A stretch of 64,000 bases of DNA from a bacterium (GTDB taxonomy: Bacteria > Actinomycetota > Acidimicrobiia > Spongiisociales > Spongiisociaceae), in assembly GCA_028821575.1 (NCBI GenBank), contig JAPPFW010000009.1:1-64000 (forward strand), written 5' to 3'. The notes beneath the pieces were generated by a model that saw only the letters and a list, made by a program, of their open reading frames with translations, was not told the origin of the DNA and did no database searches. The position numbers and the translations under genes were made by a program. This document shows positions 12,296-57,984 of this stretch, in pieces (the stretch's first letter is position 1; every line of letters starts with the position of its first letter).

Positions 12296-12371
<76 letters not shown>

Positions 12372-32485: not shown

Positions 32486-32556
<71 letters not shown>

Positions 32557-32751: not shown

Positions 32752-32827
32752 GGTGGCCGTAGCTCAGCTTGGTTAGAGCGCCTGGTTGTGGTCCAGGAGG
32801 TCGGGGGTTCGAGTCCCCTCGGTCACC
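32752..32827 (+). tRNA. tRNA-His (anticodon GTG)
   Basis: Acceptor GTGGCCG pairs with CGGTCAC. An extra 5' G at 32752 faces discriminator C at 32827, the G-1 identity element of histidine tRNA. Anticodon loop TTGTGGT gives GTG. Confidence 0.95.
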
Positions 32828-32882
32828 CCGGTGCCGCGTCGGACGGCGCCCGGTCCCTTGGCCGCCATGATTGAGGAGTCCA

Positions 32883-38877: not shown

Positions 38878-38927
38878 TGGCTTGTGGCTGTTGAAGACCA
38901 CTGACCACTGACCACTGACCACTACGA
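38866..38927. repeat. TGGC/ACCACTG repeat on the valS stop codon
   Basis: Left part is copies of GTGGCT(A/T), right part four tandem ACCACTG units ending at the folC start. The halves are imperfect reverse complements: GTGG words pair while the bases between mismatch. The valS TAG is within the left half. Confidence 0.6.
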
Positions 38928-40237: not shown

Positions 40238-40938
40238 GAGGAAGCCGAGGAGGGACGGATCCTGCCGGCTCCCCCGTCGCCGGACGCCTGGGCTACAACG
40301 TGGTCGGCGAACGAATACGTCCTGTACGGGTCTCGGTGCCTCCCCGGTGTCACGTCTCCTGGACTCTCACAGTTACCCGGAACGTACCGACCGTCCCGCC
40401 AGGCAACCCCGCGGACCAAGAACGCGAAAAACCCCCGAACGGACCCGTCCGGCGGGCCCACCCCCGACCGCCACCTCCGAAGTCTCCGAACGCGTCCCGC
40501 CATCCCCCGCAAGGAGTCGGCTCCCACAACATGATCCCTGCCCCGGTCCGATCGGCACCGCACACGGACCGTTGGTGTCTGCGGCTACTTACCAGCATGC
40601 AACGGGACCGTGACACGGACAACCCCCTCGGTACGCCGCCTCGGTCCCCGAAAGCGCCGTGAGCGGACCGGGATGCCGATCGATGGACCTCGCGGTGCGC
40701 TTGCCCAGCGAGCCGGAGAGATCGGGACACCGGAGAGGCTGACCACCCGTGCAGCGGGCTTCGCGGACAACCGACCACCTCTTCTACCAGGCGATCTTCC
40801 CAGCAGAGAACCCCGTTAGGTAGTTCTTCGGGTCTCTCCTAGAATGCGTCCCAGGCTTCCGTTGCTCGCGTGAACGCCCGGGGGGACGCACTCGCCTCCG
40901 GCACCGCTCACTGACCGAATAGGGAGGAACGCCTGAGG
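40238..40938. other. 700-base intergenic region between folC and ndk
   Basis: No gene with family support, although long overlapping frames exist on both strands. It holds the conserved element at about 40513-40632. A TAGAAT word at 40840-40845 could be the -10 of ndk; its -35 is weak. Confidence 0.5.
40513..40632. ncRNA. repeated conserved intergenic element, copy A (possible structured RNA)
   Basis: Matches, in reverse orientation, a segment at 56364-56479. In the 38-base core (40568-40605) I count 34 identical positions. CCGTTG (40569-40574) and CAACGG (40600-40605) form the same 6-base stem in both copies. GGTCCG and CGGACC (40551-40571 area) can pair as an alternative. Neither copy lies in a recognised gene. 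Structured RNA, protein-binding site or small mobile repeat remain possible. Confidence 0.45.
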
Positions 40939-41343
40939 ATGCCCCACCAGAGCACTTTCATAATGGTCAAGCCGGACGGCGTCCGGCGCGGTCTCGTAGG
41001 GGAGGTGATCGCACGATTCGAGGCCAAGGGATTGTCGCTCGAACGTATGGAGCTCACGGTCCCCAGCGGGGAGGTCGCTGCACGGCACTACGCCGAGCAC
41101 CGGCAGAAGTCCTTCTACGCCGGGCTCATCGACTTCATCACCTCCGGACCGGTGGTTGCCATGCAGTGGTCGGGGGAGTCCGCCGTGACGGTGGCCCGGA
41201 CCATGATCGGGAGCACCGATCCGGTCGGCGCACCACCCGGAACGATCAGGGGCGACTTCGGACTCGACGTGCAGGAGAACATCGTGCACGGGTCGGACAG
41301 CCCCGATAGCGCTGCGCGGGAACTCGCGATATGGTTCGGTTAG
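40939..41343 (+). CDS. ndk: nucleoside diphosphate kinase
   Basis: 134-residue NDP kinase balancing nucleoside triphosphates. N-terminal TFIMVKPDGVRRGLVGEV is the family signature, and the phospho-accepting His is in ENIVHGSDS near residue 114. GGGAGG lies upstream of ATG 40939. It precedes mreB, as in many actinobacteria, but 92 bases and a new -10-like TAGAAT (41400-41405) separate them. Confidence 0.97.
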   Translation: MPHQSTFIMVKPDGVRRGLVGEVIARFEAKGLSLERMELTVPSGEVAARHYAEHRQKSFYAGLIDFITSGPVVAMQWSGESAVTVARTMIGSTDPVGAPPGTIRGDFGLDVQENIVHGSDSPDSAARELAIWFG

Positions 41344-41435
41344 CCGGTGAGCGCCGCGGATAAGTATCTCTCCTGGATGGGTCATGCCTCCGGACCGGCT
41401 AGAATCAATGTGCACCGTTTACCCGGGGTCTAGAC

Positions 41436-42467
41436 ATGCCCGATAATTTCTTCACTATCGCGGGCCAGGACATGGCTGTGGATCTCGGGACCGCCAACAC
41501 CCTCGTGTACGTGCGGAACCGGGGTGTCGTGCTGAACGAGCCGTCGGTGGTCGCGATCAACACGCACACGAACGAGGCCTTGGCCGTGGGTATGGACGCC
41601 AAGCGCATGATCGGCCGAACCCCCTCCTACGTGAAGGCGATCCGGCCCCTCCGCGACGGGGTGATCGCCGACTTCGACATCACCGAACGGATGCTGCGGT
41701 ATTTCATTCAGCGGGTTCACAGGCGCCGCTGGGCGAAGCCGAGGATCGTCATCTGCGTACCTTCGGGAATCACCGGGGTCGAGCGGCGAGCCGTCGAGGA
41801 GGCCGCCTATCACGCCGGAGCGCGCAGAGCCTTCACCGTCGACGAACCGATGGCGGCCGCCATCGGCTGCGCGCTACCCGTCAACGAACCGATCGGGTCG
41901 ATGGTGGTCGATATCGGGGGAGGCACCACCGAGGTCGCGGTGATCGCTCTCGGCGGCATCGTCGTGTCGAAGAGCATCCGGGTGGGCGGCGACGAGATGG
42001 ACGAGCGGATCGTCGAGTGGGTGAAGAAGGAACACAACCTCCTGCTGGGCTTGCGGACCGCCGAGCAGATCAAGATGACCATCGGCTCGGCATACCCCTT
42101 CCAGGACGAGCCGAGCGCCGAGGTTCGTGGCCGGGACCTCATGTCCGGGCTGCCGAAGACAATCCTCATCAGTGCGTCCGAGGTTCGCACGGCGATCGAG
42201 GAGCCGGTGTCGGCGATAGTCGATGCCGTGCGGGTGACCCTCGACAACACGCCCCCCGAGCTGGCGGCGGACCTGATGGACATCGGCATCGTCCTCACCG
42301 GGGGCGGCGCTCTGCTGAAGGCACTGACACACCGCATTGCATTCGAGACGGGGATGATGGTGAGCACCGCCGAACGTCCGCTCCAGTCCGTCGTGATCGG
42401 GTCGGGGAAGTGTCTCGAGGAGTATGACGTGCTGCACACGGTTCTCGACTCGTCCGGTCGTCCCTGA
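41436..42467 (+). CDS. mreB: rod-shape-determining actin homologue MreB
   Basis: 343 residues. Filament-forming ATPase guiding side-wall peptidoglycan synthesis. Actin-fold motifs: phosphate 1 DLGTANTLVYV near residue 16, phosphate 2 VVDIGGGTTEVAV and the adenosine motif IVLTGGGALLKAL. N-terminal NFFTIAGQDMAVD may be the membrane-binding part. It heads the mreB-mreC-mreD-mrdA-rodA elongasome cluster, implying a rod-shaped or elongating cell. Confidence 0.97.
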   Translation: MPDNFFTIAGQDMAVDLGTANTLVYVRNRGVVLNEPSVVAINTHTNEALAVGMDAKRMIGRTPSYVKAIRPLRDGVIADFDITERMLRYFIQRVHRRRWAKPRIVICVPSGITGVERRAVEEAAYHAGARRAFTVDEPMAAAIGCALPVNEPIGSMVVDIGGGTTEVAVIALGGIVVSKSIRVGGDEMDERIVEWVKKEHNLLLGLRTAEQIKMTIGSAYPFQDEPSAEVRGRDLMSGLPKTILISASEVRTAIEEPVSAIVDAVRVTLDNTPPELAADLMDIGIVLTGGGALLKALTHRIAFETGMMVSTAERPLQSVVIGSGKCLEEYDVLHTVLDSSGRP

Positions 42468-42560
42468 CGGGATGCCGGACCGTAGCCGTCGCCGGCTACC
42501 GGGAATCCACAGGACCTCCCCCCGCCGCTGGTCGACCCCGGACATCTCCAGCCCGCGCCC

Positions 42561-43568
42561 GTGAGATCACGGTACGGATCCGCGCGCCGGGGCATGGGCG
42601 CGGCCGCCTCCGGGCACTCGATCGCCAGACAAAGGTCATCGCGGATCGAGACCGACCGGTCAGCATATGTTGCGATCGGGTTGCTGATCGTATCCCTGCT
42701 GCTGATGACATACGACATCCGGTCCTCCAACCGCGGGATCGGCACAACCCTGCGCAACGCGGCGCAATACATCGTTGCTCCCGTACAGGCCGGGGCCAAT
42801 GCGGTGGTGACGCCGCTGGTCGACTTCACCGACGGGGTCGCCAATCTTGCGGGTCTCCGGGACGAGAACGAACGGCTCAGGATCCGCATCGGGGAGCTGG
42901 AGCGGGAGGTGGTTCGCGTCGGACACCTCGAGGAACAGGTCGATCAACTCAACGTGCTGCTTGGCCTGCGTCTCGAGGACAACCTGCACGAGCTGGCCGT
43001 GAACGCGGAGGTCACCGGTCGGGGAGGCACGCTGGACCCGACCATGCTCATCGATCGGGGAACCGACGACGGCGTGCACCCCGGCCAGCCGGTTCTGGAC
43101 GGCAAGGGTGCCTTGATAGGCGTCGTCTCCGAGGCTAGCGAGCAGACCGCGACGGTGATCCCGATCACATCCCGCAAGGCGCCCGGGGTGACGGTCCGGC
43201 TGGCCAACGGACGGAGAGGGATAGTGGAGGGCGAGGGCACCGACGCCCTGTCCCTGACGATCCTCAATGCGCGGTTCCCGGTTCGCAAGGGCGAGCTTCT
43301 CACAACTTTCGGCCCCTACGGCGAGTCCGTATCGTATCCGAAAGGTCTCGACGTCGGGCTGGTTGCCGACTCGGCTTCACCCCGCTCCGGCGTCCTCAGC
43401 GTCGACGTGGATCCCATCGGCGACATCGAGGACGTCGAGTTCGTGGTGGTGATCCCCTGGCCTCCCGCCCCGGACCAGCTCGAGGACGAGGCCGAGATTC
43501 CCGCCACCTTCGAGGACCCGCTCCCGGGGGATCCATCCACCGGGAGCGAGGAGGAGGGCGGCCAGTGA
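42561..43568 (+). CDS. mreC: rod-shape-determining protein MreC
   Basis: 335 residues. One membrane helix at about 37-52 (AIGLLIVSLLLMTYD), a coiled coil around 95-130 (RDENERLRIRIGELEREVV), then the beta-rich MreC domain with TDDGVHPGQPV and ends in an acidic Pro-rich tail. Links MreB filaments to the periplasmic penicillin-binding proteins. GTG 42561 is uncertain; ATG 42594 would remove 11 basic residues. The stop overlaps mreD by GTGA. Confidence 0.92.
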   Translation: MRSRYGSARRGMGAAASGHSIARQRSSRIETDRSAYVAIGLLIVSLLLMTYDIRSSNRGIGTTLRNAAQYIVAPVQAGANAVVTPLVDFTDGVANLAGLRDENERLRIRIGELEREVVRVGHLEEQVDQLNVLLGLRLEDNLHELAVNAEVTGRGGTLDPTMLIDRGTDDGVHPGQPVLDGKGALIGVVSEASEQTATVIPITSRKAPGVTVRLANGRRGIVEGEGTDALSLTILNARFPVRKGELLTTFGPYGESVSYPKGLDVGLVADSASPRSGVLSVDVDPIGDIEDVEFVVVIPWPPAPDQLEDEAEIPATFEDPLPGDPSTGSEEEGGQ

Positions 43569-44086
43569 CCGTATGGCACCTTGTCGTCTCGCTGACCCTG
43601 GTACTCGTGGCCGTGCTGGTGCAGACCACCATATTCCGCGCGGTCCGCCCGTTCGACGTGAGTCCCGACATCCTGCTGCTGATGGTGATCGCCTGCGGGC
43701 AATGGCTGAAGCCGGAGGCGGCCGTCCTGCTGGGGTTCGTCGGAGGCCTGATGCTCGACCTGTTCGGAACAGCGCCGCTAGGACTCCATGCGCTGGCCTA
43801 CACGCTGGCAGCGTACGCAACCGTGAGGGTGGGCGACCGTTTCAACTACGGGCTGTATTTCGCCGTCTCGGCAGTCGGCGGGATCACGTTCGTCGGGATC
43901 GCCACCGTGGCCCTGATCGGCACGCTCTTCGGCGAGGGCACACTGGCGTCTCCGGGGATCGTCAGGACCCTGGTGCTCGTGCCGGCGTACAACACGGTCC
44001 TGGCTCTCGCCGTGCTCCCGATGACCACCTGGCTGTACGGAACCCGCCTGGCACCCAGGTACTCCCGGCCCGGAACGCCGATATGA
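43565..44086 (+). CDS. mreD: rod-shape-determining membrane protein MreD
   Basis: 173 residues, five to six membrane helices (LVVSLTLVLVAVLVQTTIF first) and the MreD-like segment GFVGGLMLDLFGTAPLGLHAL. GTG start within the mreC stop. Forms the MreCD complex in the membrane; sequence conservation in this family is low, and context strengthens the call. Confidence 0.92.
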   Translation: MTVWHLVVSLTLVLVAVLVQTTIFRAVRPFDVSPDILLLMVIACGQWLKPEAAVLLGFVGGLMLDLFGTAPLGLHALAYTLAAYATVRVGDRFNYGLYFAVSAVGGITFVGIATVALIGTLFGEGTLASPGIVRTLVLVPAYNTVLALAVLPMTTWLYGTRLAPRYSRPGTPI

Positions 44087-44147
44087 GACGTCCACGGCCC
44101 CGCTGTCGCCGCATCCGGCGTCGAACGCGCCGGCCACGGATAACCCG

Positions 44148-46097
44148 ATGAAGCCGACTCTGAGGGTGGGACTGCTGGCCATTCTGTTCACTGCAGGCTT
44201 CACGGTCCTGTTCATCAGGCTCTGGTTCGTCCAGCTGGCGGTGGGACCGGAATGGGCCCGCCAGGCCGACCAGAACATCGTTCGGGTCGAATCGATCGCG
44301 GCGCCCAGGGGCAACATCGTGGACCGGAACGGGATACTGCTGGCCACGTCGCGCCCCCAACTCGTCCTGGAGGTCGATCGGGCCGAGCTGCCGATCGAGG
44401 TCGAGAACGACGTCATCCAGCGGCTGGCGGCCATCCTCGACGTGTCGCCGGTGGAGGTGAGGGGCCAGGTCGAACGGGCCCGGTCCGGCGAGGTGGCTCT
44501 GCTGACCGAGTTCCAGATCGACACCGACACGGCATACCTGGTGATGGAGCAACGTCGCAGCCTTCCCGGCGTTACCGTGAAGGCGCTCCCGGTCCGCGGG
44601 TATCTCCGCGGGCAGTTGATGGGACACGTTCTCGGCCACATCGGGCTACCCTCGGCCGCCGACCTGGAGAGGCTCCCGCAGATGGACGCCAACACGCCCA
44701 TAGGGAAGCTGGGCGTCGAGCGGGAGTACGACGACTTCCTCCAGGGCACGCCCGGCAAGGTCGCCTACCGGATCAACGCCCAGGGCGACGTCCTCGACGT
44801 GGTTGGCGATCCCGTGGAGCCGCTCCAGGGCGCGACGCTGCGGTTGACCCTCGACATACCCATCCAGGAGGCGGTGGAGGAGATACTCGTCGAGGCCATC
44901 GAGCTGTCCAACACCCTGAAGGACGAGCGGGAGCCGACCGACCCGGGTCGTATCCCGGGGCCGGCGGAGAGAGCGGCGGCTCTGGTGATGGAGGTTGAGA
45001 CCGGGGCGATCCTCGCGATGGCCTCCTACCCGACGTTCGAACCCGAGTCGTTCGTCGGGGGCATCGACATCGAGACGTTCGATGAGCTGTCCAGCCGCCA
45101 GGCCTTCAACAACCTGGTCATCCAGGGCCTCAAGCCCCCGGCGTCCACCTTCAAGACGATCACCTACGTGACCGCCCTCGAAGAGGGGATCTTCCCCGAG
45201 GGAGTGTCCTCCCCCGACGAGGTGATCCAGTGTTCACCCCAACTCGAAGCCGACTTCGTCGATCGCTCCCAGCTCGTCTGGCGCAACTGGACCTACCCCG
45301 AGGCGGACGGATACCAGGATCTGCACGATGCGATCCGGCGTTCCTGCAACATCTACTTCTGGGAGATAGCCCTCTCCATATGGCACACCTACAAGCTCAC
45401 AGAGCAGGAGGGAATGGTCCAGGACTGGGCACGGAGCCTCGGCCTGGGAAGGGCCACCCAGGTGGACCTTCCCTTCGAGAACGAAGGAATCCTGGGAGAC
45501 CGGCAACTGTTCGAGGAGTGGCGGGAGAGCCAGCCCTGGCGGGTTCGCCGCGAGGGCTGGTTGGGAGGCGACCTCATGAACCTGGTGGTCGGCCAGGGAC
45601 CGATCCTCGCCACACCCATACAGATGGCCGTGGCGTATGCCTCGGCTGTCAACGGCGGAACCGTCTACCAACCTCGGGTAGCCGACCGTCTCGAGTCCGC
45701 GGACGGCCAGGTGATCCGCACGATGGAGCCCCGTGTGTTGCGTACACTCGACATGCATGCGGACACGGTGGAGAGTCTGCGGACGGACCTGGCCTCCGTG
45801 GTCAGCGGCGGGACGGCCCGGAGAGCCTTCGCCAACATGGGGCCCGTTGCCGGGCAGATCGGCGGCAAGACGGGCACAGCCCAGGCCTTTACCGACCAGG
45901 ACGGGACCTTCCACGACTCCACGGCCTGGTTCATAGGGGTGGCCCCCATCGACGACCCGATGTGGGTGGTGGCCGTAATGGTCGACGAGGGCGGATCCGG
46001 AGGGGCGGTCGCAGCCCCCGCAGCCCGGGCTATCTTCCAGTACCTCTTGGGCGATCCGGTGACCGCCTTGGAGGCCGGCGAGGACACGGAGCGTTAG
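44148..46097 (+). CDS. mrdA: penicillin-binding protein 2, elongation transpeptidase
   Basis: 649 residues. N-terminal membrane anchor at about 8-28 (VGLLAILFTAGFTVLFI), then the dimerisation/pedestal domain with RGNIVDRNG, then the transpeptidase domain. Active-site motifs: SxxK in PPASTFKTITY, SxN in RRSCNIYFWE and KTG in GGKTGTAQAF. Crosslinks side-wall peptidoglycan together with RodA, encoded 46 bases downstream. Confidence 0.96.
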   Translation: MKPTLRVGLLAILFTAGFTVLFIRLWFVQLAVGPEWARQADQNIVRVESIAAPRGNIVDRNGILLATSRPQLVLEVDRAELPIEVENDVIQRLAAILDVSPVEVRGQVERARSGEVALLTEFQIDTDTAYLVMEQRRSLPGVTVKALPVRGYLRGQLMGHVLGHIGLPSAADLERLPQMDANTPIGKLGVEREYDDFLQGTPGKVAYRINAQGDVLDVVGDPVEPLQGATLRLTLDIPIQEAVEEILVEAIELSNTLKDEREPTDPGRIPGPAERAAALVMEVETGAILAMASYPTFEPESFVGGIDIETFDELSSRQAFNNLVIQGLKPPASTFKTITYVTALEEGIFPEGVSSPDEVIQCSPQLEADFVDRSQLVWRNWTYPEADGYQDLHDAIRRSCNIYFWEIALSIWHTYKLTEQEGMVQDWARSLGLGRATQVDLPFENEGILGDRQLFEEWRESQPWRVRREGWLGGDLMNLVVGQGPILATPIQMAVAYASAVNGGTVYQPRVADRLESADGQVIRTMEPRVLRTLDMHADTVESLRTDLASVVSGGTARRAFANMGPVAGQIGGKTGTAQAFTDQDGTFHDSTAWFIGVAPIDDPMWVVAVMVDEGGSGGAVAAPAARAIFQYLLGDPVTALEAGEDTER

Positions 46098-46143
46098 GAG
46101 GGCGCGGGCAGATGAACGGAGGGACAGTCAGGGCGGAGAGCCG

Positions 46144-47313
46144 ATGGCGGTTGTAAGTCGCACTTGGGAAGGCGTAGGCGGGCTCTTCCGGGACCGCCCC
46201 AAACCCACGCCCGACGTGGTCATGTTCCTCCTGATGGCCGGCCTCATGGCCCTCAGCGGGATCATGGTCTACTCGGCCACCTTCGTGCGGCTGGAGGCTG
46301 AGATAGGGGATCCCTCAGCAGCAATGCGGCGGCAATTTGTATTCGCAGGTCTGGCCCTGGCCGCGTTCATCGGCGGATCGCTGTTCGACTACCGCCATTA
46401 CCGGCGCCTGCTGATTCCGATCTACGTGTCGACGGTCGTCCTGCTGGTGGCGGTCCTGTTCTTTCCACCGCACCAGGGCGCCTCCCGGTGGATCCCGATA
46501 GGACCCTTCCAGTTCCAGCCCTCCGAGTTCGCCAAGGTTGCCCTGGTGGTCGTCCTGGCCGCGTTCCTGGCTGCCGAGTCGGAGCGCAGGCTCAAATGGA
46601 GGCGCCTGGGGCTGGCGCTGCTGCTCACCGCCATTCCCGGCTACCTGATCTTCCGGCAGCCCGACCTGGGGACGATGCTGGTGATCGGTTTCATCGCCGT
46701 CGGGATGCTGTTCGTGGCCGGAACCGGCATCAAGCAGGTATTGGTGCTGCTGATCGCCGGTGTGGCCGGTGTCGTAGCCGTGTTCCAACTCGACGTGTTG
46801 CGCAACTACCAGATGCAACGACTCGCCGGCTACTTCGACCAGACCTACGACCTCCAGGGCGTCAACTGGAACCTCTACCAGTCGCAGATCGCCATCGGGT
46901 CGGGCCAACTGTTCGGTCGAGGCCTTTTCCAGGGGACCCAGACGAGGCTCAGCTTCATCCCGTCGCAGACCACCGACTTCATCTTCACCACGGTGGGGGA
47001 GCAGTTCGGGTTCATCGGCGGCTCGGCGGTGCTCATCGTCTACTCGATCCTGGTCTGGCGTGTCCTGATGGTGGCCGCCGGAGCACCCAGCCGGTTCGGC
47101 GTCCTCATCGCCGTGGGAATGGCCTCCCTGCTCTCCTTCCACATCTTCGTCAACGTCGGGATGACGATCGGGCTGGTACCGGTGACCGGCCTGCCGCTGC
47201 CATTCCTGAGCGCCGGGGGTTCGGCGATGATCGCGATGGCGGGCGGCCTGGGCATCGTGAACTCCGTGTGGCGCTCCCGGACGCCGGTGGGAGAGTTCCA
47301 GCAACTGCGCTAG
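46144..47313 (+). CDS. rodA: peptidoglycan glycosyltransferase RodA
   Basis: 389-residue SEDS-family polymerase with about ten membrane helices. Signature segments are QPSEFAKVALVVVLA, FRQPDLGTMLVIGF (with the catalytic-region Asp), YQSQIAIGSGQLFGRG and TGLPLPFLSAGGSAM. Membrane topology and the operon position behind mrdA identify RodA rather than the divisional FtsW. Confidence 0.96.
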   Translation: MAVVSRTWEGVGGLFRDRPKPTPDVVMFLLMAGLMALSGIMVYSATFVRLEAEIGDPSAAMRRQFVFAGLALAAFIGGSLFDYRHYRRLLIPIYVSTVVLLVAVLFFPPHQGASRWIPIGPFQFQPSEFAKVALVVVLAAFLAAESERRLKWRRLGLALLLTAIPGYLIFRQPDLGTMLVIGFIAVGMLFVAGTGIKQVLVLLIAGVAGVVAVFQLDVLRNYQMQRLAGYFDQTYDLQGVNWNLYQSQIAIGSGQLFGRGLFQGTQTRLSFIPSQTTDFIFTTVGEQFGFIGGSAVLIVYSILVWRVLMVAAGAPSRFGVLIAVGMASLLSFHIFVNVGMTIGLVPVTGLPLPFLSAGGSAMIAMAGGLGIVNSVWRSRTPVGEFQQLR

Positions 47314-47842
47314 GTCCGGAGGCGGGACCCTGGCACCGCCCTATCCAAAGATCATCAGTCCCGGAGCGGGCTGCTAGGCTGTTCTAGACCGCTCGCGCGG
47401 TCTGCTATGAGCCTGGCCCGCGATGACCGCCTTGTCCATGCTTGGAGGCCTACTCCGATTCATCGCTGGATGCGGCGCACGCCCGGCAACACGAGAAACT
47501 GTGGAACACGAAGACCTGTGAGCACCCAGAACGGCCCCGACCAGCGTGACGCATCGTCGCTAACTCGCGTCTGTACGGGCGGCATAGTCGGATTCACATA
47601 CGCGGAACCTGCTACAGCAGCGGGACCCGGCGTGGAGTGCAGGCTCAGCAAAACCGTCCGGAGCGAGTCCGGACCACCGGGTACAAGTAGAAGGAACCGC
47701 GCTGACGGGCGACCGAGTCCGGCAAATGCACCCAGAGTGCATGAAGGCAGGTCTGGCGGCTCGTGTCTCGCCGCTCCATCACCCATCGGACCTCCGAGGG
47801 TTTCCCGCGCGGCCACCACACTCACGCAAGGAGTTAGAACGT
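47314..47842. other. 529-base intergenic region between rodA and rng
   Basis: No supported gene. A perfect 7-base hairpin with a TCGC loop is at 47386-47403. The segment 47440-47830 is open on the minus strand for 121 codons (47460-47825) but without a family match or ribosome site. Likely carries the rng promoter, which I cannot place. Confidence 0.45.
47386..47403 (+). terminator. small hairpin, candidate end of the elongasome operon
   Basis: AGACCGC-TCGC-GCGGTCT, 73 bases after the rodA stop. No U-tract, so low confidence as an intrinsic terminator. Confidence 0.35.
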
Positions 47843-49387: not shown

Positions 49388-49588
49388 CCGCGCAGGACCG
49401 GTTGGCGCGACCGCAGGGATCGTGACGTATGGGAAACGGAAGGGAAAGGCTGGATCCTTGCCGGACCGGGCCGTCCTGCTTTGGACCATCGACGCGGTTC
49501 GGTTATGTTGTCTCCGGATCGGCAGGCTGCTGGATTACGGCCCGTCACTCTCCTAGACTTCCCTCCGGCGAAAGGGCTCGGGTCTGAC

Positions 49589-49900
49589 ATGTACGCAATC
49601 ATCCGCTCCGGCGGCAAGCAGGCGAGGGTTTCGGCCGGAGACGTCCTCGATGTCGAACTGCTCAGGGACGCCGACGGCCACGTGACCTTCACGCCCTTGC
49701 TCGTGGTCGATGACGACGGTACTGCCGTCACGGACAAGGCGACACTCGATAGCCTGCCGGTCACCGCCCGAGTGTTGGGCGAGGTGAGAGGCCACAAGAT
49801 CGACATCTTCAAGTACAAGAACAAGACCGGTTACCGCCGGCGGAAGGGGCACCGTCAGCGTTACACGCGGCTCGAGATCGTACGGATCGGTTCGGCATAG
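49589..49900 (+). CDS. rplU: 50S ribosomal protein L21
   Basis: 103 residues, standard for bL21: [20 protein letters not shown] at the start, [21 protein letters not shown] at the rRNA-binding end (described by motif start [10 protein letters not shown]). ATG 49589 fits the family start; a longer frame does not. Forms the rplU-rpmA-obgE operon. Confidence 0.97.
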
Positions 49901-49916
49901 CCCTAGGGAGGCCAGG

Positions 49917-50165
49917 ATGTCCAAGACAAAAGGCGGAGGCTCGACCAAGAACGGGCGCGATTCGCAGGCGAAGCGGCTCGGTCCGAAGGTTTTCGACGGC
50001 CAGTACATCAACGCCGGGACCATCCTCGTGCGCCAGCGGGGGACGCGCATCCACCCCGGAGACAACGTCGGTCGGGGAGGCGACGACACGCTCTTCGCCC
50101 TCAAGGAGGGAACGGTCAAGTACCACATGCGGCACGGTCGCCGGAGGGTGAGCATCCTCAGCTAG
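49917..50165 (+). CDS. rpmA: 50S ribosomal protein L27
   Basis: 82 residues. Starts [20 protein letters not shown]; the flexible N-terminal tail reaches the peptidyl-transferase centre, and there is no N-terminal cleavable extension of the Firmicutes type. [11 protein letters not shown] and [15 protein letters not shown] complete the family pattern. Ribosome site GGGAGG upstream. The TAG stop is the first part of a CTAGTAGTTG repeat. Confidence 0.97.
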
Positions 50166-50216
50166 TAGTTGCTGGTTGGTAACCGCCAGTAGTATCCACT
50201 ACCAATTCAGACTACC
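50163..50216. repeat. CTAGTAGTTG-type repeat on the rpmA stop codon
   Basis: Begins CTAGTAGTTGCTGGTTGG, nearly the same as the left arm of the hairpin at 61609, and continues with TAGTATCCACTACC. The rpmA stop lies at its left edge. Confidence 0.5.
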
Positions 50217-50247
50217 GGCTGATACCTATCGACCAAGGACTGGCGCC

Positions 50248-51507
50248 GTGTTCGTAGACCATGTCCGCGTACATCTCCGCTCTGGTAACGGCGGGGCGGG
50301 AGCGGTGTCGTTCGTCAAGGAAGGAAGGCGGCCCCGGGGGAAACCGGCCGGCGGCTCGGGTGGACGCGGCGGCAGGGTGATAGTCGCGGCCGATCACCAC
50401 AGGGCAACGTTGCAAACCTACCGGCGCCGGCCCCATCGTACGGCCGGGAGCGGAACCCATGGATCATCCGACCTGCGCCACGGCCGGCGGGGCGAGGACC
50501 TGATCGTCAAGGTACCGCCGGGAACCGTGGTCTTCGACGACCACGGCACCCTGCTCGCCGACCTCGTGGAGCATGGACAGCGGGTGGTAGTGCTGGAGGG
50601 AGGCCGTGGTGGCAGGGGCAACGCAGCACTCGTCAGCCCCCGCAACCGCGCGCCGACCTTCTGCGAGCAAGGAGAGTACGGGGAGCGGAGTTCATTCACC
50701 TTCGAGATGAAGCTCGTCGCCGACGCGGCACTGATCGGCTTTCCGAACGCCGGGAAGTCCACTCTCATCTCCCGGGTATCGGCTGCCCGACCCAAGATCG
50801 CCGACTACCCGTTCACCACCCTGGAACCGAATCTCGGGGTGGTGGTGATCGGCGACCGGGAGTTCGTGCTGGCCGACGTACCCGGCCTGATCGAAGGCGC
50901 CGCCGAGGGGAAGGGTCTCGGTCACGAGTTCCTCCGGCACTGCGAGCGAGCGAAGGTGCTGGTAGTGCTGGTGGATCCCTCCCCACTCCAGGAACTGGCG
51001 CCGGAACACCAGTACGAGGTCCTGCGCCGCGAACTTAGGGCTCATGACCCGGAGTTGGCCAACCGGCCCCGGCTCGTGGCGGTGACCAAGGCGGACCTGG
51101 GCATCGAGGACTCGGTCCTGGGCGGCCTGCGCCGGGCGGTTCCCGACATCATGGTGGTGAGTTCCGTTTCGGGGACCGGCATGAAGGAGTTGCTCCACCG
51201 TATCGCCGACGCCGTCGAACTCGCCGACCGGGACAAGGCGGGCGGCGAGGGCTTCGTCCTGCACCGACCACTCGGTCCGGCGTTTTCGATCAGGCGGGTC
51301 GACGACACGTGGATCGTGGCGGGGCGCGATGCAGAGCGAGCGGTAGCCTTGAACGATCTCACCGTACCGGAGGCCGCCGGTCTGGCCGCCCGGCGCCTCG
51401 CGCGCCTGGGTGTAGATGGCGCCCTCCGCCGGGCGGGGGCTCGGGAGGGGGATGAGGTCCGGATAGGCGATCACTTATTCGAGTTCTGGGAGTCCGAGGA
51501 TGGCTGA
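50248..51507 (+). CDS. obgE: Obg-family GTPase
   Basis: 419 residues. The Gly-rich Obg domain (1-160, RSGNGGAGAVSFVKEGRR) is followed by the G domain with P-loop GFPNAGKST, switch I DYPFTTLEPNLGVV, G3 DVPGLIEGA and G4 VTKADL, then an OCT domain to the end. GTG 50248 follows AAGGA and matches the family start MFVDHVRVHLRSG; the earlier ATG adds 24 repeat-derived residues. Acts in 50S subunit assembly and stress response. Overlaps proB by 8 bases. Confidence 0.96.
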   Translation: MFVDHVRVHLRSGNGGAGAVSFVKEGRRPRGKPAGGSGGRGGRVIVAADHHRATLQTYRRRPHRTAGSGTHGSSDLRHGRRGEDLIVKVPPGTVVFDDHGTLLADLVEHGQRVVVLEGGRGGRGNAALVSPRNRAPTFCEQGEYGERSSFTFEMKLVADAALIGFPNAGKSTLISRVSAARPKIADYPFTTLEPNLGVVVIGDREFVLADVPGLIEGAAEGKGLGHEFLRHCERAKVLVVLVDPSPLQELAPEHQYEVLRRELRAHDPELANRPRLVAVTKADLGIEDSVLGGLRRAVPDIMVVSSVSGTGMKELLHRIADAVELADRDKAGGEGFVLHRPLGPAFSIRRVDDTWIVAGRDAERAVALNDLTVPEAAGLAARRLARLGVDGALRRAGAREGDEVRIGDHLFEFWESEDG

Positions 51508-52618
51508 CATCCGGCCCGGCCGCCGCAAGCCCCCCAGCAGGATGCCGATCGTGCTGAAAGTAGGCTCTTCCAGTCTCACCCTGCCGGACGGCGGGATCGA
51601 CGACGACGCCATCCTCAGGGTCACCGAGCAGGTCGGCACGCTGTGGGATGCCGGATTCCCCACCGTCCTGGTCTCGTCCGGCGCGGTAGCGGCGGGATCG
51701 GCCGTACTGGGCCGGCGGCCCCGTGACACCACCGGGCTGCAGGTAGCCGCCGCGGTGGGCCAGACGCTGCTCATGGCCCGCTACAACCGCGCCTTCGGCG
51801 CGTTGGGACTCACGGTCGGCCAGGTGCTGATAACCCTGGACATCCTGTCCATGCGTTCCCAGTACCTCCACGCCCGAGGGGCCCTTCAGCGGATGCTCGA
51901 GAACTCCATCGTGCCGATCGTCAACGAGAACGACACAGTGGCCGTCGAAGAGTTGAAGATGGGGGACAACGACCGCGTGGCCGCCATCGTCTCGCACCTG
52001 GTGGGAGCCGGGATGCTGGTGATTCTCACCGACACGGATGGCCTCTACTCGGCGGATCCTCGCTCCGGCGAGGGCGAACCGATCTCGGTCATCCGGCACA
52101 GCGATCCGTTGCTGGACCGGCTAGCTCCGGGAACCGCCGGTCCCATCGGGTCGGGAGGGGTGGGAACCAAGATAGAGGCCGCCCGCATGGCAGCCTGGTC
52201 CGGGATCCCCACCGTCATCGCCCGCTCGGATCGTACCGGCGTGATAGACACCATCATCCGAGGCGGGGAGACAGGCACGTACGTGGCACCCGGTGACACC
52301 AAGCTGTCGGCCTGGAAGCTGTGGTTGGCCTTCGGGCAGCAACCCAGCGGCACGCTCCGGATTGATGACGGTGCCGTGCGGGCCCTGGCGCGCCGGGGCG
52401 GCTCGCTACTGCCGGTGGGCGTCACCGGAGTGGACGGCGAATTCCCGGCGGAAGCTTCGGTGGAGGTCAGGAGCCGCACGGGCGTGCTGGTGGGGAAGGG
52501 TTTGGTGACGAGCGACTCGGACCAGGTCAGGGAACGGATGGGTAAGCGCAGCACGGATACGGGGATCCCCTCCGAGGTGATCCATCGCGATCGGTTGGTC
52601 GTCCTGCTGGACGGCTGA
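51500..52618 (+). CDS. proB: glutamate 5-kinase
   Basis: 372 residues: amino-acid kinase domain (MPIVLKVGSSSLTLPDGGI, then LVSSGAVAAGSAVLG, NENDTVAVEEL and IGSGGVGTKIEAARMA) and a C-terminal PUA domain from about 280. Catalyses the first, feedback-regulated step of proline synthesis. proA is not adjacent; the potassium-uptake genes interrupt the usual order. Starts 8 bases inside obgE. Confidence 0.96.
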   Translation: MADIRPGRRKPPSRMPIVLKVGSSSLTLPDGGIDDDAILRVTEQVGTLWDAGFPTVLVSSGAVAAGSAVLGRRPRDTTGLQVAAAVGQTLLMARYNRAFGALGLTVGQVLITLDILSMRSQYLHARGALQRMLENSIVPIVNENDTVAVEELKMGDNDRVAAIVSHLVGAGMLVILTDTDGLYSADPRSGEGEPISVIRHSDPLLDRLAPGTAGPIGSGGVGTKIEAARMAAWSGIPTVIARSDRTGVIDTIIRGGETGTYVAPGDTKLSAWKLWLAFGQQPSGTLRIDDGAVRALARRGGSLLPVGVTGVDGEFPAEASVEVRSRTGVLVGKGLVTSDSDQVRERMGKRSTDTGIPSEVIHRDRLVVLLDG

Positions 52619-52631
52619 CCCTCGGGGCCTC

Positions 52632-54137
52632 CTACCGGCGCCAGAGAGACCGGGTGAAGAGCAGGAGTACCGGGAAGAGCTCTAGGCGCCCGGCGATCAT
52701 CAGCAGCGAGAGCAGCCACTTACCGGGCCACGTCAGGGCGGAATAGTTGCCGGTCGGCCCGAACTCACCGAGCGCCGGGCCGAAGTTGCTGAGAGCGCTG
52801 GCGGTGGCCGATGCGGCTTCCACGAGGCCGAGTTCGGGCCCGAATATGGCGCCCAGGAAGCCCAGCAGGAAAGTACCTGTCATGAACAGGAACATGAAGA
52901 AGAGGAAGAACGACTGGACACTCTGCACGATGGGCTCGTGCACCCGCTTCGAACCGAACCTGATCAAGAAGATCCCGCGAGGGTGGATGAGGCGCCTCAG
53001 GTCGGCCGCCGCCGCCCTGACCAGCACACCCATGCGGTAGATCTTGATGCCGCCGGTGGTCGATCCCGCCATACCGCCCAGGAACATCAGGCCGACCACG
53101 AACAGTTGGAGAGCCGGTATCCAAGCGCCGAAGTCAGCGGTCGCGTATCCGGTGCCGGTGACCAGGGACATAGATGTGAAGACCGAGTCGCGGATGACGT
53201 CGGCTGCAGGCGCCTGCCCCCACAGGCTCAGGATCATGACCAGGCTGGCGACCGCCACGATCCCCGTGAACAACCTGAACTCGGCGTTCTTGAGGTACCG
53301 GCCGGGATCCCGCACGGCTCGGAAATGCAGCGCGAATGAGGTTCCGGAGATCAACATGAAGACGATCACCACCCACTGCACGTAGGGGCTGAAACCGTCG
53401 ATGGAGGTGGCTTCGGTGCTGAACCCGCCGGTGGCCATGTTGGTGAAGGAGTGGTTGATGGCCTGGAAGAGCGTCATGTCCCCCGCCCATAGGAGGAGCA
53501 TCTCCACCAGCGTCAACAAGGCGTAGATGTACCACAGCCTCTTGGCGGTTTCCCGGAAGCGAGGCGTTAGACGATCGGGTTCGGGCCCGGGCGACTCGGC
53601 CCGAGCCAGCTGTACCCCGCCGGTTCCGAGCAGGGGGAGGACGGCCAGCGACAGGACGATCACGCCCATGCCGCCCAGCCACTGGGTGGTGGACCTCCAC
53701 ATGACGATGCCGCGGGGCATTGCGGCCGGATCGGGGATCAAGGTGGCGCCGGTGGTGGTGAAGCCGGACACGGTCTCGAAGAATGCGTCGGTGAGGTTGT
53801 CGATGGTTCCGGTCAGCAGGTACGGGAGCATCCCGAAGCATGCCATGGCGAACCAGGCGAGGCCTACCGAGGCGAACCCCTCCTTCGTGGTGACGGTCCC
53901 GGGACGACCCATCACCCGCCAGCCGAACAGTCCGGCCAGGATCGTGAGTACCCCCGACAACGTGATCCAGGCGGCAACTTCCTGTTCCCGGTAGATGAGC
54001 GCGGTGACCGCTGCCGGAAACATGGCGGTCCCGGCCGCCACCACCACGGCTCCGATCACGTAGAAGAGCCGGCGGAAGGTGGAACCCGGCCGTCGCAGGA
54101 AGAACCGCGACCCGGTCGGAAGGTCGCGGTCGCTCAC
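52632..54137 (-). CDS. trkH: Trk potassium uptake channel subunit
   Basis: 501 residues with four M1-P-M2 repeats and extra N-terminal helices. Selectivity-filter-like segments: SGFTTTGATL, NMATGGFSTE, VTGTGYATADF and SNFGPALGEFG. First gene after trkA in a minus-strand pair convergent with proB. K+ uptake channel gated by the cytoplasmic TrkA ring. Confidence 0.95.
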   Translation of the reverse strand: MSDRDLPTGSRFFLRRPGSTFRRLFYVIGAVVVAAGTAMFPAAVTALIYREQEVAAWITLSGVLTILAGLFGWRVMGRPGTVTTKEGFASVGLAWFAMACFGMLPYLLTGTIDNLTDAFFETVSGFTTTGATLIPDPAAMPRGIVMWRSTTQWLGGMGVIVLSLAVLPLLGTGGVQLARAESPGPEPDRLTPRFRETAKRLWYIYALLTLVEMLLLWAGDMTLFQAINHSFTNMATGGFSTEATSIDGFSPYVQWVVIVFMLISGTSFALHFRAVRDPGRYLKNAEFRLFTGIVAVASLVMILSLWGQAPAADVIRDSVFTSMSLVTGTGYATADFGAWIPALQLFVVGLMFLGGMAGSTTGGIKIYRMGVLVRAAAADLRRLIHPRGIFLIRFGSKRVHEPIVQSVQSFFLFFMFLFMTGTFLLGFLGAIFGPELGLVEAASATASALSNFGPALGEFGPTGNYSALTWPGKWLLSLLMIAGRLELFPVLLLFTRSLWRR

Positions 54138-54171
54138 CGGCGGATACCCCTGCTCGGGCTCCCGGACCGTC

Positions 54172-55503
54172 TCACGTAGTGAACAAGGATTCGACTCTGG
54201 CCATTGCGGTCGGGATGGTGAAGATGATCAGGTGATCGTGAGCCCTGATGGACGTCACACCCGACGGGACGAAGGAACTGTCGCCTCTCAGAATACCCCC
54301 GATCACCGCTCCCGAGGGCAGGGGCAACTCCAGCAGCGTGCGGCCCACCGCCTCCGAATCGGGTTCTACCTCGATCTCGATCACCTCGGCATCCGTGTCG
54401 GAGAAGGTGGCAACCGAATAGATGTTTCCTCGCCGAACGAAGCGCAGTATCTGGGCCGCGGCGGCCAGCCTGGTCGATACGGTCGTGTCAACGCCTATCC
54501 CGGCCAGGAGTCCCACGTAGCTCATCCTGGTCACGCGCGTGATGGTCGTGGAGGCGCCCAGAGCCTTCGCGACCAACGATCCGATCAGGTTCATCGAGTC
54601 GATTCCGGTGAGCGCCACCACCGCGTCGCCCTGATCGATCCCTAGGTCGTTGTACACCTCCGGGTCGGTCGGATCACCGGCGATCACGAGGGCCGACGGA
54701 TGCCGCTCCGCTACATCGCGGCAGCGACCCATATCAGGATCGACGACCACTATGGGAAGGCGTATCTCGACGAGTTGGTCGGCTGTCAAGCGCGCCACCC
54801 GGGTCGTTCCGATGATCAGGGCCCGCCTTATCTTGGGTCCGTGTATCCCGATGAGGGTCTTCGCCCGGTCGACGTTGTGACTCCGCACCATCAGGAGGAG
54901 GTGGTCCCCCTCCCGAATCGTCGTGTCACCATGGGCCACGATCGTGATGCCGTTGCGAACTACGGCGATCGCCAGCCACCGGAACTCGGTGAAGCGGCCG
55001 CGTATTCTCCTCAGCGGGATGCCGAGGAGCGGGGAGAGCGCGGTCGCGGTACCGCCCACGAGGGCGAGCTGCCCTCCTCCGAACTCGATCAACTCGGACA
55101 CTCCCGACTCGCTCACCAGCGCTGCTATCTCGTTGGCGGCCGACTCGACCGGATCGATCACGAAGTCGACGGCGAGACCCTCCAAGCCGTCCTTCAACCC
55201 TGGATCCTGGACGCGTGCCACGGTGCGCGGAACGCCCATCTTCGTGGCGGTATGACAGGCGATGATGTTGGCGCCATCGCTGGTCGAGACGGCCAGCAGG
55301 AGATCGGCTTCATCGGCGCCCGCTTCCGCCAGAATGGATGCGCTGGCGCCGTTGCCGGTAATCACCAAAGCGTCCAAGCGGTCCCGTATCTCCGCGGCGC
55401 GCTTGGGATTGATCTCGATGACCACGACGTCCTGGCCTTCCAGTGACAGGCGCTCGGCGATGTAACCGCCGATCGCGCCTGCACCAACGATGATGATTCG
55501 CAT
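54172..55503 (-). CDS. trkA: Trk system potassium uptake regulator
   Basis: 443 residues: RCK/TrkA-N domain with NAD-binding GAGAIGGYIAERL, a TrkA-C domain, then a second TrkA-N (RALIIGTTRVARLTADQL) and TrkA-C. The duplicated architecture is that of TrkA. Binds nucleotides and controls TrkH; the genes are 34 bases apart, trkA first. Confidence 0.95.
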   Translation of the reverse strand: MRIIIVGAGAIGGYIAERLSLEGQDVVVIEINPKRAAEIRDRLDALVITGNGASASILAEAGADEADLLLAVSTSDGANIIACHTATKMGVPRTVARVQDPGLKDGLEGLAVDFVIDPVESAANEIAALVSESGVSELIEFGGGQLALVGGTATALSPLLGIPLRRIRGRFTEFRWLAIAVVRNGITIVAHGDTTIREGDHLLLMVRSHNVDRAKTLIGIHGPKIRRALIIGTTRVARLTADQLVEIRLPIVVVDPDMGRCRDVAERHPSALVIAGDPTDPEVYNDLGIDQGDAVVALTGIDSMNLIGSLVAKALGASTTITRVTRMSYVGLLAGIGVDTTVSTRLAAAAQILRFVRRGNIYSVATFSDTDAEVIEIEVEPDSEAVGRTLLELPLPSGAVIGGILRGDSSFVPSGVTSIRAHDHLIIFTIPTAMARVESLFTT

Positions 55504-55742
55504 CCTGAGTGACCTCGTCTAACGCGAAAGAATGGCCCGGGTTCCCAGGTTAGTTCAGACCAGGCGCTGATCGATAGCAACGGCAGCCGCCCGGAGATCG
55601 GCCCCCACAGACCCCTTGGCAAGACCGAGCGGGCGGGTTACCTTTCGGCGGTGTGCGGCTGAGCCCGAGCGGCAGTAGACCGGGCGAGGCCGTGGCGGCG
55701 CTGATCTGTTCGGCACGGCGACGGGAGGCAGGGAGTGGCTCT

Positions 55743-56261
55743 GTGCCTGCATTCCGCATGACGATCCTGGGCATCCTCGTCGCGCTACCGATGTCGGTGG
55801 GCCAGTTCCCGGCTGCGTTCGCGGCGGCCGGAGAAGGGAACCGGTCCTGCGTGGGTCTCGATCCACCCAGCGATGGCGTGGTCACCCACCGGTTCGAACC
55901 CGGGCCCGGATACGAGGGCCACTGGGGAATCGACTATTTCGGCGACTCGGACGGATACGCCGACGCGGCTGCCAGGGGCCGCGTTGCCTTCGCTGGCGAG
56001 GTCGTCGGCAACCTGGTGGTCAGCATCGATCACGGTGGAGGGTTGGTGACGAGCTACTCGTACCTGGGCGAGCCCACGGTTACACGAGGCCAACGGGTCG
56101 AGCGCGGTACGCGGCTGGGACACCTGAGTCCGGGACCCATACACGACGACCTGCACTTCTCGGTACGAATCGAGGGGGCCTACGTCGATCCGGAGACCGT
56201 GCTGGGCTGCCAGCCGCGCAGTCCATCGATGGGTCTCCGCCTGGTGCCGGTCGACCCTTAG
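55743..56261 (+). CDS. secreted LytM/M23-like protein, probably non-catalytic
   Basis: 172 residues from GTG 55743, preceded by GGGAG. Signal sequence VALPMSVGQFPAAFAAA. The M23 fold is recognisable: HWGIDYFGDSDGYADAAARGRVAFAGEV, then HGGGLVTSYSYLGEP and DDLHFSV. First His and Asp of the zinc site (HWGID) are kept, but the usual YxHL segment reads YSYL and the HxH pair reads DLH, so zinc ligands are altered. A cell-wall-binding or hydrolase-activator role (EnvC-like) is inferred. Divergent from trkA. Confidence 0.75.
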   Translation: MPAFRMTILGILVALPMSVGQFPAAFAAAGEGNRSCVGLDPPSDGVVTHRFEPGPGYEGHWGIDYFGDSDGYADAAARGRVAFAGEVVGNLVVSIDHGGGLVTSYSYLGEPTVTRGQRVERGTRLGHLSPGPIHDDLHFSVRIEGAYVDPETVLGCQPRSPSMGLRLVPVDP

Positions 56262-56724
56262 AAGGTTGTCGGGTCTTAAGTTCCGAGCGGTCCAGGTTCG
56301 GCTCCGTCCGAGAACGGCACACCCTCCCCTCGCAACCCTCGGAGGTTCCAAGCCTCCCGGCACGAGAGGTTTGCCCTTGTCACAGTGCCGTTGCATACTG
56401 GTAAGTAGCCGTAACCACCAACGGTTCGAATGCGGTACCGGACGGACCGGGTAGGGATCATGCAGCCGGAGCCAACCCATTAGGGGACGGCAGGACGCGT
56501 CCGGGATTCAAGGAGGTGGCGGTGGGGGTGGGCCCAGTGTAGAAGTCCTGTCCTACGATTTTCGCGTTCTCCCGGTTCGTTTGCTCCCGCTCGCCGGGTT
56601 GTCGGCATCTTCCGGTACAGATGACAACTCCTGTATCAGGTAATGGAGGCTTCGATGACTCGATGCCGGGTAGGACGAGCACAGCCACGAACGGGACGGG
56701 GCTTCGAGCGGTAGCCTCTTGCGC
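56262..56724. other. 463-base intergenic region upstream of nadD
   Basis: No supported gene. Contains copy B of the repeated element (56364-56479). Long minus-strand frames exist only because of GC content. Confidence 0.45.
56364..56479. ncRNA. repeated conserved intergenic element, copy B
   Basis: Counterpart of 40513-40632 in opposite orientation. Stem CCGTTG (56388-56393)/CAACGG (56419-56424) is conserved. GGTTCG (56423-56428) can pair with CGGACC (56443-56448); copy A has GGTCCG with CGGACC, so the C-to-T change keeps pairing as G-U. The two stems share GG, as in a switch. It lies upstream of nadD-rsfS on the same strand. Confidence 0.45.
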
Positions 56725-57324
56725 ATGCGGATCGGCCTGCTCGGAGGAACGTTCGATCCACCCCATGTCGCCCACATGGTGGTGGCCGAAGCCGCGTTCA
56801 GACAGCTGGAACTCGACCACGTCACGTTCCTACCCGCCGGCATCCCTTGGCAGAAAGCTGGAACACCGGTGACAGCTGCCCGACACCGATGGGGGATGAC
56901 ACTCGCCACCACCTCGGACATCCCCTATCTGGAGGCTGACAACAGCGAGATCGCTCGCTCCGGATACTCGTACACGATTGACACCCTCATCGAGCTGGAG
57001 GGGGTGATACCAACCTTGATCCTGGGAGCGGATGCAGCAGCCCGCATCCGGTCATGGCACCGGTCCGAGGAGGTGCTGGAACGGGCCCGCATCGCGGTCG
57101 CTCCCCGAACCGGAACAGCTCGAACTGCCGTGGAAGAGGCGGTCGGTGGGTCGCTCGACTGGCTGGAGATTCCGGCCCTGGCCATCTCGGGCACTGAACT
57201 CCGGAGACGGGCCGCCGCCGGACACAGCCTGCGGTTCCTGGTCCGCGAGCCGGTCCGCAGCTACATCCTCGCCCACCGCCTATACATGCCATCGAGGGCA
57301 TCACAGCGGATTGACCGCCAATAG
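56725..57324 (+). CDS. nadD: nicotinate-nucleotide adenylyltransferase
   Basis: 199 residues from ATG 56725; TTG 56719 would add two residues. Nucleotidyltransferase motifs: GGTFDPPHVAHMVVAE near the N terminus and the C-terminal ISGTELRRR. DNSEIARSGYSYTIDTL and LILGADAAARIRSWHR are NadD-like. Adenylates nicotinate mononucleotide in NAD biosynthesis; paired with rsfS as in most bacteria. Confidence 0.95.
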   Translation: MRIGLLGGTFDPPHVAHMVVAEAAFRQLELDHVTFLPAGIPWQKAGTPVTAARHRWGMTLATTSDIPYLEADNSEIARSGYSYTIDTLIELEGVIPTLILGADAAARIRSWHRSEEVLERARIAVAPRTGTARTAVEEAVGGSLDWLEIPALAISGTELRRRAAAGHSLRFLVREPVRSYILAHRLYMPSRASQRIDRQ

Positions 57325-57911: not shown

Positions 57912-57984
57912 GGGGCTGTAGCTCAGCTGGCAGAGCGCTTGCATGGCATGCAAGAGGTCACGGGTTCAAATCCCGTCAGCTCCA
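57912..57984 (+). tRNA. tRNA-Ala (anticodon GGC)
   Basis: Acceptor GGGGCTG pairs with CAGCTCC (one G-U). Anticodon stem CTTGC/GCAAG with loop ATGGCAT gives GGC. T arm ACGGG-TTCAAAT-CCCGT. The last 19 bases overlap, on the opposite strand, the 3' end of the amidotransferase gene. Confidence 0.95.

Follow-up and report, generated by a model that had tools for sequence, protein, structure and literature searches.

A multi-copy intergenic unit of Spongiisociaceae genomes that probably encodes a structured RNA spread by IS630-type elements

What are the two similar, oppositely oriented sequences that lie between genes in a 64,000-nucleotide stretch of a Spongiisociaceae genome (class Acidimicrobiia; assembly GCA_028821575.1, contig JAPPFW010000009.1, positions 1 to 64,000; hereafter the window)? 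A sequence-only reading had placed them at 40513-40632 and 56364-56479 and described them as a conserved RNA-like element with two stems that exclude each other, as in switches. Both sites were found as placed, in opposite orientation, and the 38-base core with 34 matching positions held on recounting; the mobile, multi-copy nature of the element had been overlooked. Here, we argue that the two sites, copies A and B, are members of a multi-copy family whose unit probably encodes a structured non-coding RNA of about 165 nucleotides (nt) with its own predicted promoter, and that this unit was probably spread within IS630-type miniature inverted-repeat transposable elements (MITEs) and appears to be under constraint.

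The similarity between the two sites exceeds chance. A 23-base part of the core is present in copies A and B and absent elsewhere in the window, and no hit arose when the window was shuffled 100 times with its dinucleotides preserved. The weaker similarity around the core is real, although its earlier estimate of about 115 bases was too short, as the match covers 168 query positions at 79% identity (E = 1.5e-31). In a BLAST comparison of copy B with the whole genome (G000; 4.1 Mb in 100 contigs), 12 matches at E < 0.02 were obtained in addition to copy A. Once aligned, the matches show a common architecture, which is found on the other strand from that first proposed; this strand carries the promoter-like signature as well as the U-run and the helices that covary. 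Two family models were used: R1, a sequence-only model built from 13 copies, which spans about 210 nt in copies A and B, and R2, a structure-aware covariance model.

The further copies for which the sequence-only reading had proposed a search are plentiful. R1 has 46 matches at E <= 0.01 in the window genome and from 29 to at least 59 in each of 12 relatives of the same family. Among 40 genomes including the window's, 17 have an R1 match; 13 of them belong to the same family, and each of the four from other families has just one match, a marginal one (E 0.002-0.01). R1 found nothing in two genomes of genus g3, which belongs to the window's family; these are 72 and 78% complete. In a search of 395 genomes of the class, in which at most six places per genome were scored under stricter filters, 19 match at E <= 1e-5, namely the same 13 and six that belong to a single genus (g30) of a second family. 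Among 396 genomes of the phylum, R2 recovered the window's genome and two weak matches (38.1 and 32.7 bits), which were rejected, both lying inside frames readable as protein. From 291 nhmmer hits, 197 distinct near-full copies under 21 genome labels were retained after removal of duplicates and of hits that did not span model positions 40-175; 26 loci found by pattern (L226-L251) and loci of other organisms were kept out of this set, and the relatives are represented by their best-scoring copies, about 1-15 per genome of the 29-59 or more present. One copy on contig C25 of the window genome (L020) carries a tandem duplication of about 40 bp.

In the 5' to 3' direction, the unit starts with TTGACC or TTGAAC, a 17-nt spacer containing TGTCACA, CATACT, GGTAGCCGTAA-CACC and the hairpin P1; then come GGGATCA (exact in 116 of the 197 copies), a small CCC/GGG hairpin and GACGCG; the 3' part is made of a G block, GGAGGTGGYGG-GGGGG-GGGCCC, followed by G/A-TTTTCGCGTTCT. 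Most columns of the G block and of the TTTTCGCG end carry 1.9-2.0 bits, this end being exact in 168 of 197 copies and the GG-GG-GG-GGGGG block being present in 188; CGCGTTCT, past the U-run, is conserved as well. At the 5' end, the second base of the -10 hexamer is A in 100% and the sixth is T in 98-100% of copies in each of three lineages, which is the usual mark of a sigma70 -10 box, and TTG of the -35 hexamer stands at 82-100% in the three lineages. The arrangement TTG-N3-17 nt-NANNNT was found at 139 of 197 starts, as opposed to 3 of 197 single-base shuffles, and TGTCACA of the spacer is about as conserved as the hexamers. The unit is thus predicted to have its own sigma70-type promoter. 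Shine-Dalgarno mimicry by AGGAGG, a motif present in only 111 of 197 copies, was therefore rejected as a family-wide explanation. In the window the parts are as follows.

40419..40628, minus strand: copy A unit, from promoter to conserved 3' end (R1 166.4 bits, E 8e-49; copy in the model seed)
40617..40622, minus strand: copy A -35 hexamer TTGTCC (letters verified; TTG 82-100% per base and lineage)
40594..40599, minus strand: copy A -10 hexamer, CATGCT, separated by 17 nt from the -35 hexamer (letters verified; A at the second base 100%, T at the sixth 98-100%)
40423..40589, minus strand: copy A predicted structured RNA (R2 142.4 bits; copy in the model)
40574..40585, minus strand: copy A P0 5' strand, GCCGC-AGA-CACC (family covariation and minimum-energy fold of copy A)
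40467..40475, minus strand: copy A P0 3' strand, GGTGGCGGT (family covariation and minimum-energy fold of copy A)
40544..40571, minus strand: copy A hairpin P1, CGGTCCG...CGGACCG, the second stem of the sequence-only reading on the other strand (family pairing; absent from the single-sequence minimum-energy fold)
40454..40478, minus strand: copy A G block, GGAGGTGGCGGTCGGGGGTGGGCCC (columns mostly close to 2 bits over the 197 copies)
40419..40431, minus strand: copy A U-run and conserved end, TTTTTCGCGTTCT (letters verified; TTTTCGCG in 168 of 197 copies)
56366..56571, plus strand: copy B unit (R1 148.6 bits, E 2.5e-43; copy in the model seed)
56371..56376, plus strand: copy B -35 hexamer TTGCCC (letters verified; family signature)
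56394..56399, plus strand: copy B -10 hexamer, CATACT, separated by 17 nt from the -35 hexamer (letters verified; family signature)
56404..56566, plus strand: copy B predicted structured RNA (R2 131.1 bits; copy in the model)
56408..56419, plus strand: copy B P0 5' strand, GCCGT-AAC-CACC (family covariation; absent from the single-sequence minimum-energy fold)
56515..56523, plus strand: copy B P0 3' strand, GGTGGCGGT (family covariation)
56422..56449, plus strand: copy B hairpin P1, CGGTTCG...CGGACCG (family pairing and both-side changes)
56512..56535, plus strand: copy B G block, GGAGGTGGCGGTGGGGGTGGGCCC (column conservation)
56559..56570, plus strand: copy B conserved end, TTTTCGCGTTCT (letters verified)

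Two helices are supported by covariation across the aligned copies. In P0, the 5' YCRY/CACC pairs with the near-invariant GGUGGYGG, and P1 corresponds to the stem GGTCCG/CGGACC, which the sequence-only reading had found preserved in both copies and which is supported family-wide, with pairing in 1086 of 1149 cells and an intact stem in 139 of 197 copies. The other stem of that reading, CCGTTG/CAACGG, extends into the promoter and is not supported, with pairing in 862 of 1175 cells and an intact stem in only 35 of 197 copies. RNAalifold, applied to 120 representatives that had been aligned to the sequence-only profile with no structure supplied, returned P1 enclosed by P0, in which positions 44-48 pair with 158-162 and 52-55 with 154-157 on either side of an AAR bulge. 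Pairs 64-79 (GC/CG), 57-86 and 47-159 (GC/AU/GU) are among the five with the strongest mutual information in the 197 copies, pair 45-161 alternates between CG and UG, and many further strong pairs are non-complementary and reflect sub-families. For the covariation test a length filter left 173 of the 197 copies and an 85% identity limit 78, one of which was entered by its window coordinates; with copy A of the window this made 79 rows, which were aligned by MAFFT (alignment A4). In these rows 83.0% of 1481 cells are paired (78.9 +/- 0.5 in shuffles), both sides of a pair change 81 times (38.9 +/- 7.4) and the covariation score is 0.228 (0.173), and for none of the three measures was any of 500 shuffles as high; pairing falls to 27-51% (maximum 51.3%) when the partners are slid. 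In P1, both-side changes occur at 6 of 8 pairs. The P1 loop (within 40544-40571 and 56422-56449) often retains a 6-base palindrome, whose variants tend to be palindromic too (GGTACC, GACGTC, GGCGCC) and which could allow loop-loop pairing between two RNAs.

Resident copies also appear to evolve under constraint. Orthologous sites, defined by matches of both flanks, gave 67 pairs in 22 clusters, and in these clusters the core diverges by 8.0% vs 14.8% for the adjoining arms of about 100 nt on each side. The core lies below the arms in 19 of 22 clusters (Wilcoxon p 1.6e-5), gaps take up 0.45% of the core vs 2.1% of the arms, and the tenth of the core that holds most of the G block diverges by 2.3%. 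The copies in this set had been selected by score; as a control, neutral substitution was simulated at the arm rate from 87 copies and pairs of equal score were retained. Divergence in the simulation remained at 12.7-13.9%, so score selection fails to explain the slow core. One cluster crosses genera, joining a window-genome copy (L056, contig C74, 1533-1745) with one in G014 (L316). This copy lacks recognisable arms and lies in a sarcosine-oxidase cluster in the order DAO-family gene, copy, about 40 nt, SoxD gene (families tested in G000).

The carrier of the unit is best seen in G001, a genome of the window's genus in which many contig ends carry highly similar copies. Recent repeats in short-read assemblies typically end up at contig ends. 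The elements of G001 have inverted ends, TAGTGTCCYG...CRGGACACTA, mostly within CTAG; the end motif occurs there 108 and 104 times, as compared to 4 and 4 for the reversed control, and 11 of 25 copies with enough flank have both ends at one mismatch. In genus g4 (89 copies, two mismatches), 32 left and 36 right ends were found (controls 6 and 7). Both ends were recognised at one mismatch in 14 copies, 13 of them in G001 and one in G009; these measure 332-390 bp, and the elements are thus short and without a transposase gene. A PF13358 search of 10 genomes found a single IS630-type fragment, located terminally on contig C16 of G001, which passes the DDE_3 cut-off (36.4 vs 28.6 bits) and matches the NCBI IS630 model NF033545 at 60.8 bits (E 1.5e-16), missing the cut-off of 100 bits of that model. 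The fragment is frame-broken, and its family-matching part ends 8 nt before a frame of 70 amino acids that has no family match; the stop codon of this frame sits inside CAGGACACTAG, the same end sequence as that of the elements, and the sequence covers the right side only. The elements in G001 are, by inference, most readily explained as IS630-type MITEs. One site occupied in G008 and one in G000 are empty in G012 and G001, respectively, with differences at both that go beyond the element itself, so that neither is a clean empty site. IS5-type transposases (12 matches to PF01609 and 7 to PF13340) were considered as movers in G001 and rejected, a matching end pair being found at 0 of 19 loci; the overlapping loci L343 and L350 share one left-type end at one mismatch, and L356/L358 adjoin a truncated copy. 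A second repeat in G001, TAGGAGGGTGCTGAGCAATCCACC..., adjoins many copies in inverted pairs (loci L095-L114, for example L107, L110 and L113) and seems to supply CTAG target sites.

Several observations weigh against the proposed RNA gene and its history. In the covariation test, the number of pairs with any both-side change (11) did not exceed that of shuffles, 90 of 500 being as high. On the same 79 rows, RNAalifold recovered four P1 pairs and joined GYG of the G block to ACGCG instead of the 5' end; since this looser alignment pairs the G block so, P0 may have a competitor, and one sub-family forms P0 only partly. Folding energies of the full copy A and B RNAs are no better than those of shuffles (z = 0.65 and 1.36) and are likewise ordinary for shorter 141-nt stretches without the 3' region of the RNA. 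In copy A the minimum-energy fold has P0 and lacks P1, and in copy B it has neither. A Rho-independent hairpin before the U-run can be drawn in many copies but was rejected, with a mean z of 0.07 over 166 distinct segments, and the transcript end is a guess because a terminator hairpin finds no support. As for constraint, in 3 of 22 clusters the core changes no more slowly than the arms, and the distant flank, partly coding, diverges by 9.9%, near the core value. The ortholog is nearer than every sampled same-genome paralog in 35 of 67 pairs, and in the other 32 a paralog is at least as near; because paralogs are so often as close as orthologs, some concerted change or gene conversion is possible. 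Of 41 copies in the window genome, none has a left end and one has a right end at one mismatch, and counts at two mismatches do not exceed those of the control. Finally, transcription of the unit, its use by the cell and its action in trans are what we infer.

The alternative that survives best, though we regard it as unlikely, is a purely selfish MITE with a functionless interior, the conserved blocks reflecting recent spread from a few master copies. The inverted ends, the highly similar copies at contig ends and the IS630 relative in G001 all fit it, as do differences between genomes in presence or absence at shared sites and the 32 pairs in which a paralog is at least as close as the ortholog. 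A functionless interior is at odds with core change about half that of the arms at the 22 shared sites, from which the neutral simulation with score selection differs, and with stems that covary. It is quite improbable that the unit is an element acting at the level of DNA, that is, a protein-binding or chromosome-organising site that resembles an RNA gene. Such a site would agree with the conservation of TGTCACA in the promoter spacer and of CGCGTTCT, and with a P1-loop palindrome that often changes as a whole, whereas the long-range covarying pairs with G-U steps (47-159 and 45-161) fit an RNA and not a DNA site.

The remaining alternative, the switch of the sequence-only reading, treats each copy as a leader in which alternative stems regulate the gene that follows. 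In the window, copy A lies between folC (38927-40237) and ndk (40939-41343) and is antisense to both; copy B lies between a gene for an M23 peptidase (end 56261) and nadD (56719-57324), with which it is co-directional. The gene assignments were checked with Pfam. Across the family, neighbours were assigned by a simple gene caller based on codon usage. The first gene downstream, callable for 168 of 197 copies (29 uncalled), is co-directional in 56 cases and convergent in 112. Among 158 copies with both neighbours called, 61 are in convergent, 45 and 34 in tandem and 18 in divergent settings (4, 5, 7 and 5 for the 21 window gaps of more than 100 bp), and a called frame overlaps the unit in 4 copies. 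These counts favour a stand-alone unit that is tolerated at gene ends over a cis switch. Although a promoter, a structured region and a U-run are present, 16 copies end 7-54 nt ahead of a co-directional gene, the copy shared by G000 and G014 stands just before SoxD and copy B shares the direction of nadD, a cis-acting switch is very improbable, and was rejected because of the orientation counts and the incompleteness of the first alternative stem, the window copies having, moreover, unrelated neighbours. A riboswitch or attenuator of the next gene was likewise rejected, as no conserved same-strand downstream association was found (56 of 168).

A short protein-coding gene was also rejected. Comparison of codon positions, proposed by the sequence-only reading, showed variability alike over the three phases (0.97, 0.93 and 0.87), so a short open reading frame is unsupported; the peptide LLTSMQR can be read in 5 of 197 copies. 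A frame is open throughout in 174 of 180 copies on the RNA strand and in 167 of 180 on the other, and the open frame on the RNA strand differs from copy to copy, so that none is common to the family. In the transcript part of the 67 ortholog pairs, 94 of 100 insertions and deletions are not multiples of three and 6 are.

If the unit is an RNA gene, the RNA would fold with its 5' end pinned to the near-invariant GGUGGYGG by P0 and would display GGGAUCA, ACGCG and a run of G. Since the fold and the exposed motifs are common to about fifty paralogs, one common partner is proposed rather than fifty private targets: the RNA would bind this partner, a protein or another RNA, with the paralogs forming a dosage-scaled pool, and would not switch the neighbouring gene. 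The RNA gene would travel in IS630-type MITEs, and the host would retain copies. More tentatively, the family may be a bacterial counterpart of short interspersed nuclear elements, in which a promoter-bearing RNA gene was copied as a non-autonomous transposon and recruited, with about fifty selected paralogs per cell; the GG-GG-GG-GGGGG block, engaged either in P0 or in a G-quadruplex, might then make the RNA a two-state trans-acting regulator.

Among known mobile elements, the family resembles IS630-type insertion sequences and MITEs in the TA mostly within CTAG, in the short inverted repeats and in the IS630 fragment beside the same end; the difference is that these elements carry a conserved 210-nt RNA-like unit. 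HEARO, the omega RNA of IscB, is also mobile, multi-copy and structured, and the unit differs from it in having no Rfam match. No IscB-type RRXRR protein was found in 13 genomes, 14 control genomes being equally silent. Rfam searches at the gathering score returned only transfer RNAs in the whole window, and at a relaxed E-value nothing at the two sites except one match of 14.4 bits, a chance-level score.

Production of small RNAs is named in a review as one possible role of MITEs (PMC10969869). A close parallel is QMITE1 and QMITE2 of Coxiella burnetii, MITEs of about 190-400 bp with about 50 copies of each family per genome, which yield the small RNAs CbsR3, CbsR13 and CbsR16 (PMC5896051); element size, copy number and the link to small RNAs are alike. 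As portrayed in the same source, CbsR13 is predicted to form a long palindrome, the promoters of CbsR3 and CbsR13 lie upstream of the insert and CbsR16 takes only its -10 from QMITE2, whereas the unit described here has a non-palindromic long-range fold with covariation and a predicted internal promoter. The Coxiella RNAs have been observed (PMC5896051); the present unit is known through its sequence, with signs of constraint. Correia/NEMIS elements of Neisseria are likewise short and mobile, lie between genes, have TA at their ends and contain sigma70-like promoters, and their transcripts form stem-loops proposed to act on adjacent mRNAs (PMC10969869, PMC2229807). In our family, by comparison, the conserved portion is internal to the ends and has no bias towards neighbouring genes of the same direction. 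The CIR repeats found in Caulobacter and further alpha-proteobacteria, described with conserved RNA folds in an older review (PMC2229807), are about 110 bp long and have proposed RNA structures kept between genera; they differ in two long inverted-repeat arms around GANTC, and a promoter is not mentioned in that description (PMC2229807). An internal covarying RNA unit under constraint thus has no counterpart in these descriptions of the Coxiella, Correia/NEMIS and CIR systems. The family was not reported in the top-ranked results of the open-access literature searched, which is weak evidence of absence.

Bacterial MITEs are mostly viewed as debris or as occasional promoters and terminators. 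In the present family the cargo of a MITE keeps a covarying fold, a promoter signature and a slower rate of change than its own arms across species. If the RNA is made, it would represent a class of structured RNAs that matches no Rfam family and whose copy number in Acidimicrobiia is unusually high; it would also be a clear example of how a transposon can spread the gene for a regulatory RNA, which the host then keeps.

Outside the family, a scan for the G-block pattern gave, among the matches listed, loci in a coral metagenome-assembled genome (five), a Myxococcales bin (two), a Planctomycetota metagenome-assembled genome, Streptomyces, mycobacteria and others, as well as two viral contigs. 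These loci have little match to the models beyond the searched block, the best R2 score being 32.2 bits (E 1.3e-6, 108 nt) at the Planctomycetota locus and the second best 26.3 bits. Spread to other phyla was rejected, and the loci were taken as chance because they had been selected by the very G block. The coral genome, Co_bin.359, contains a different repeat-like sequence (L152, L162, L169, L217 and L249) with the G block and a long common upstream stretch, otherwise unlike the family. The window itself also contains seven transfer RNA genes, located at 12296-12371, 30349-30432, 32214-32829 (four clustered there) and 57912-57985.

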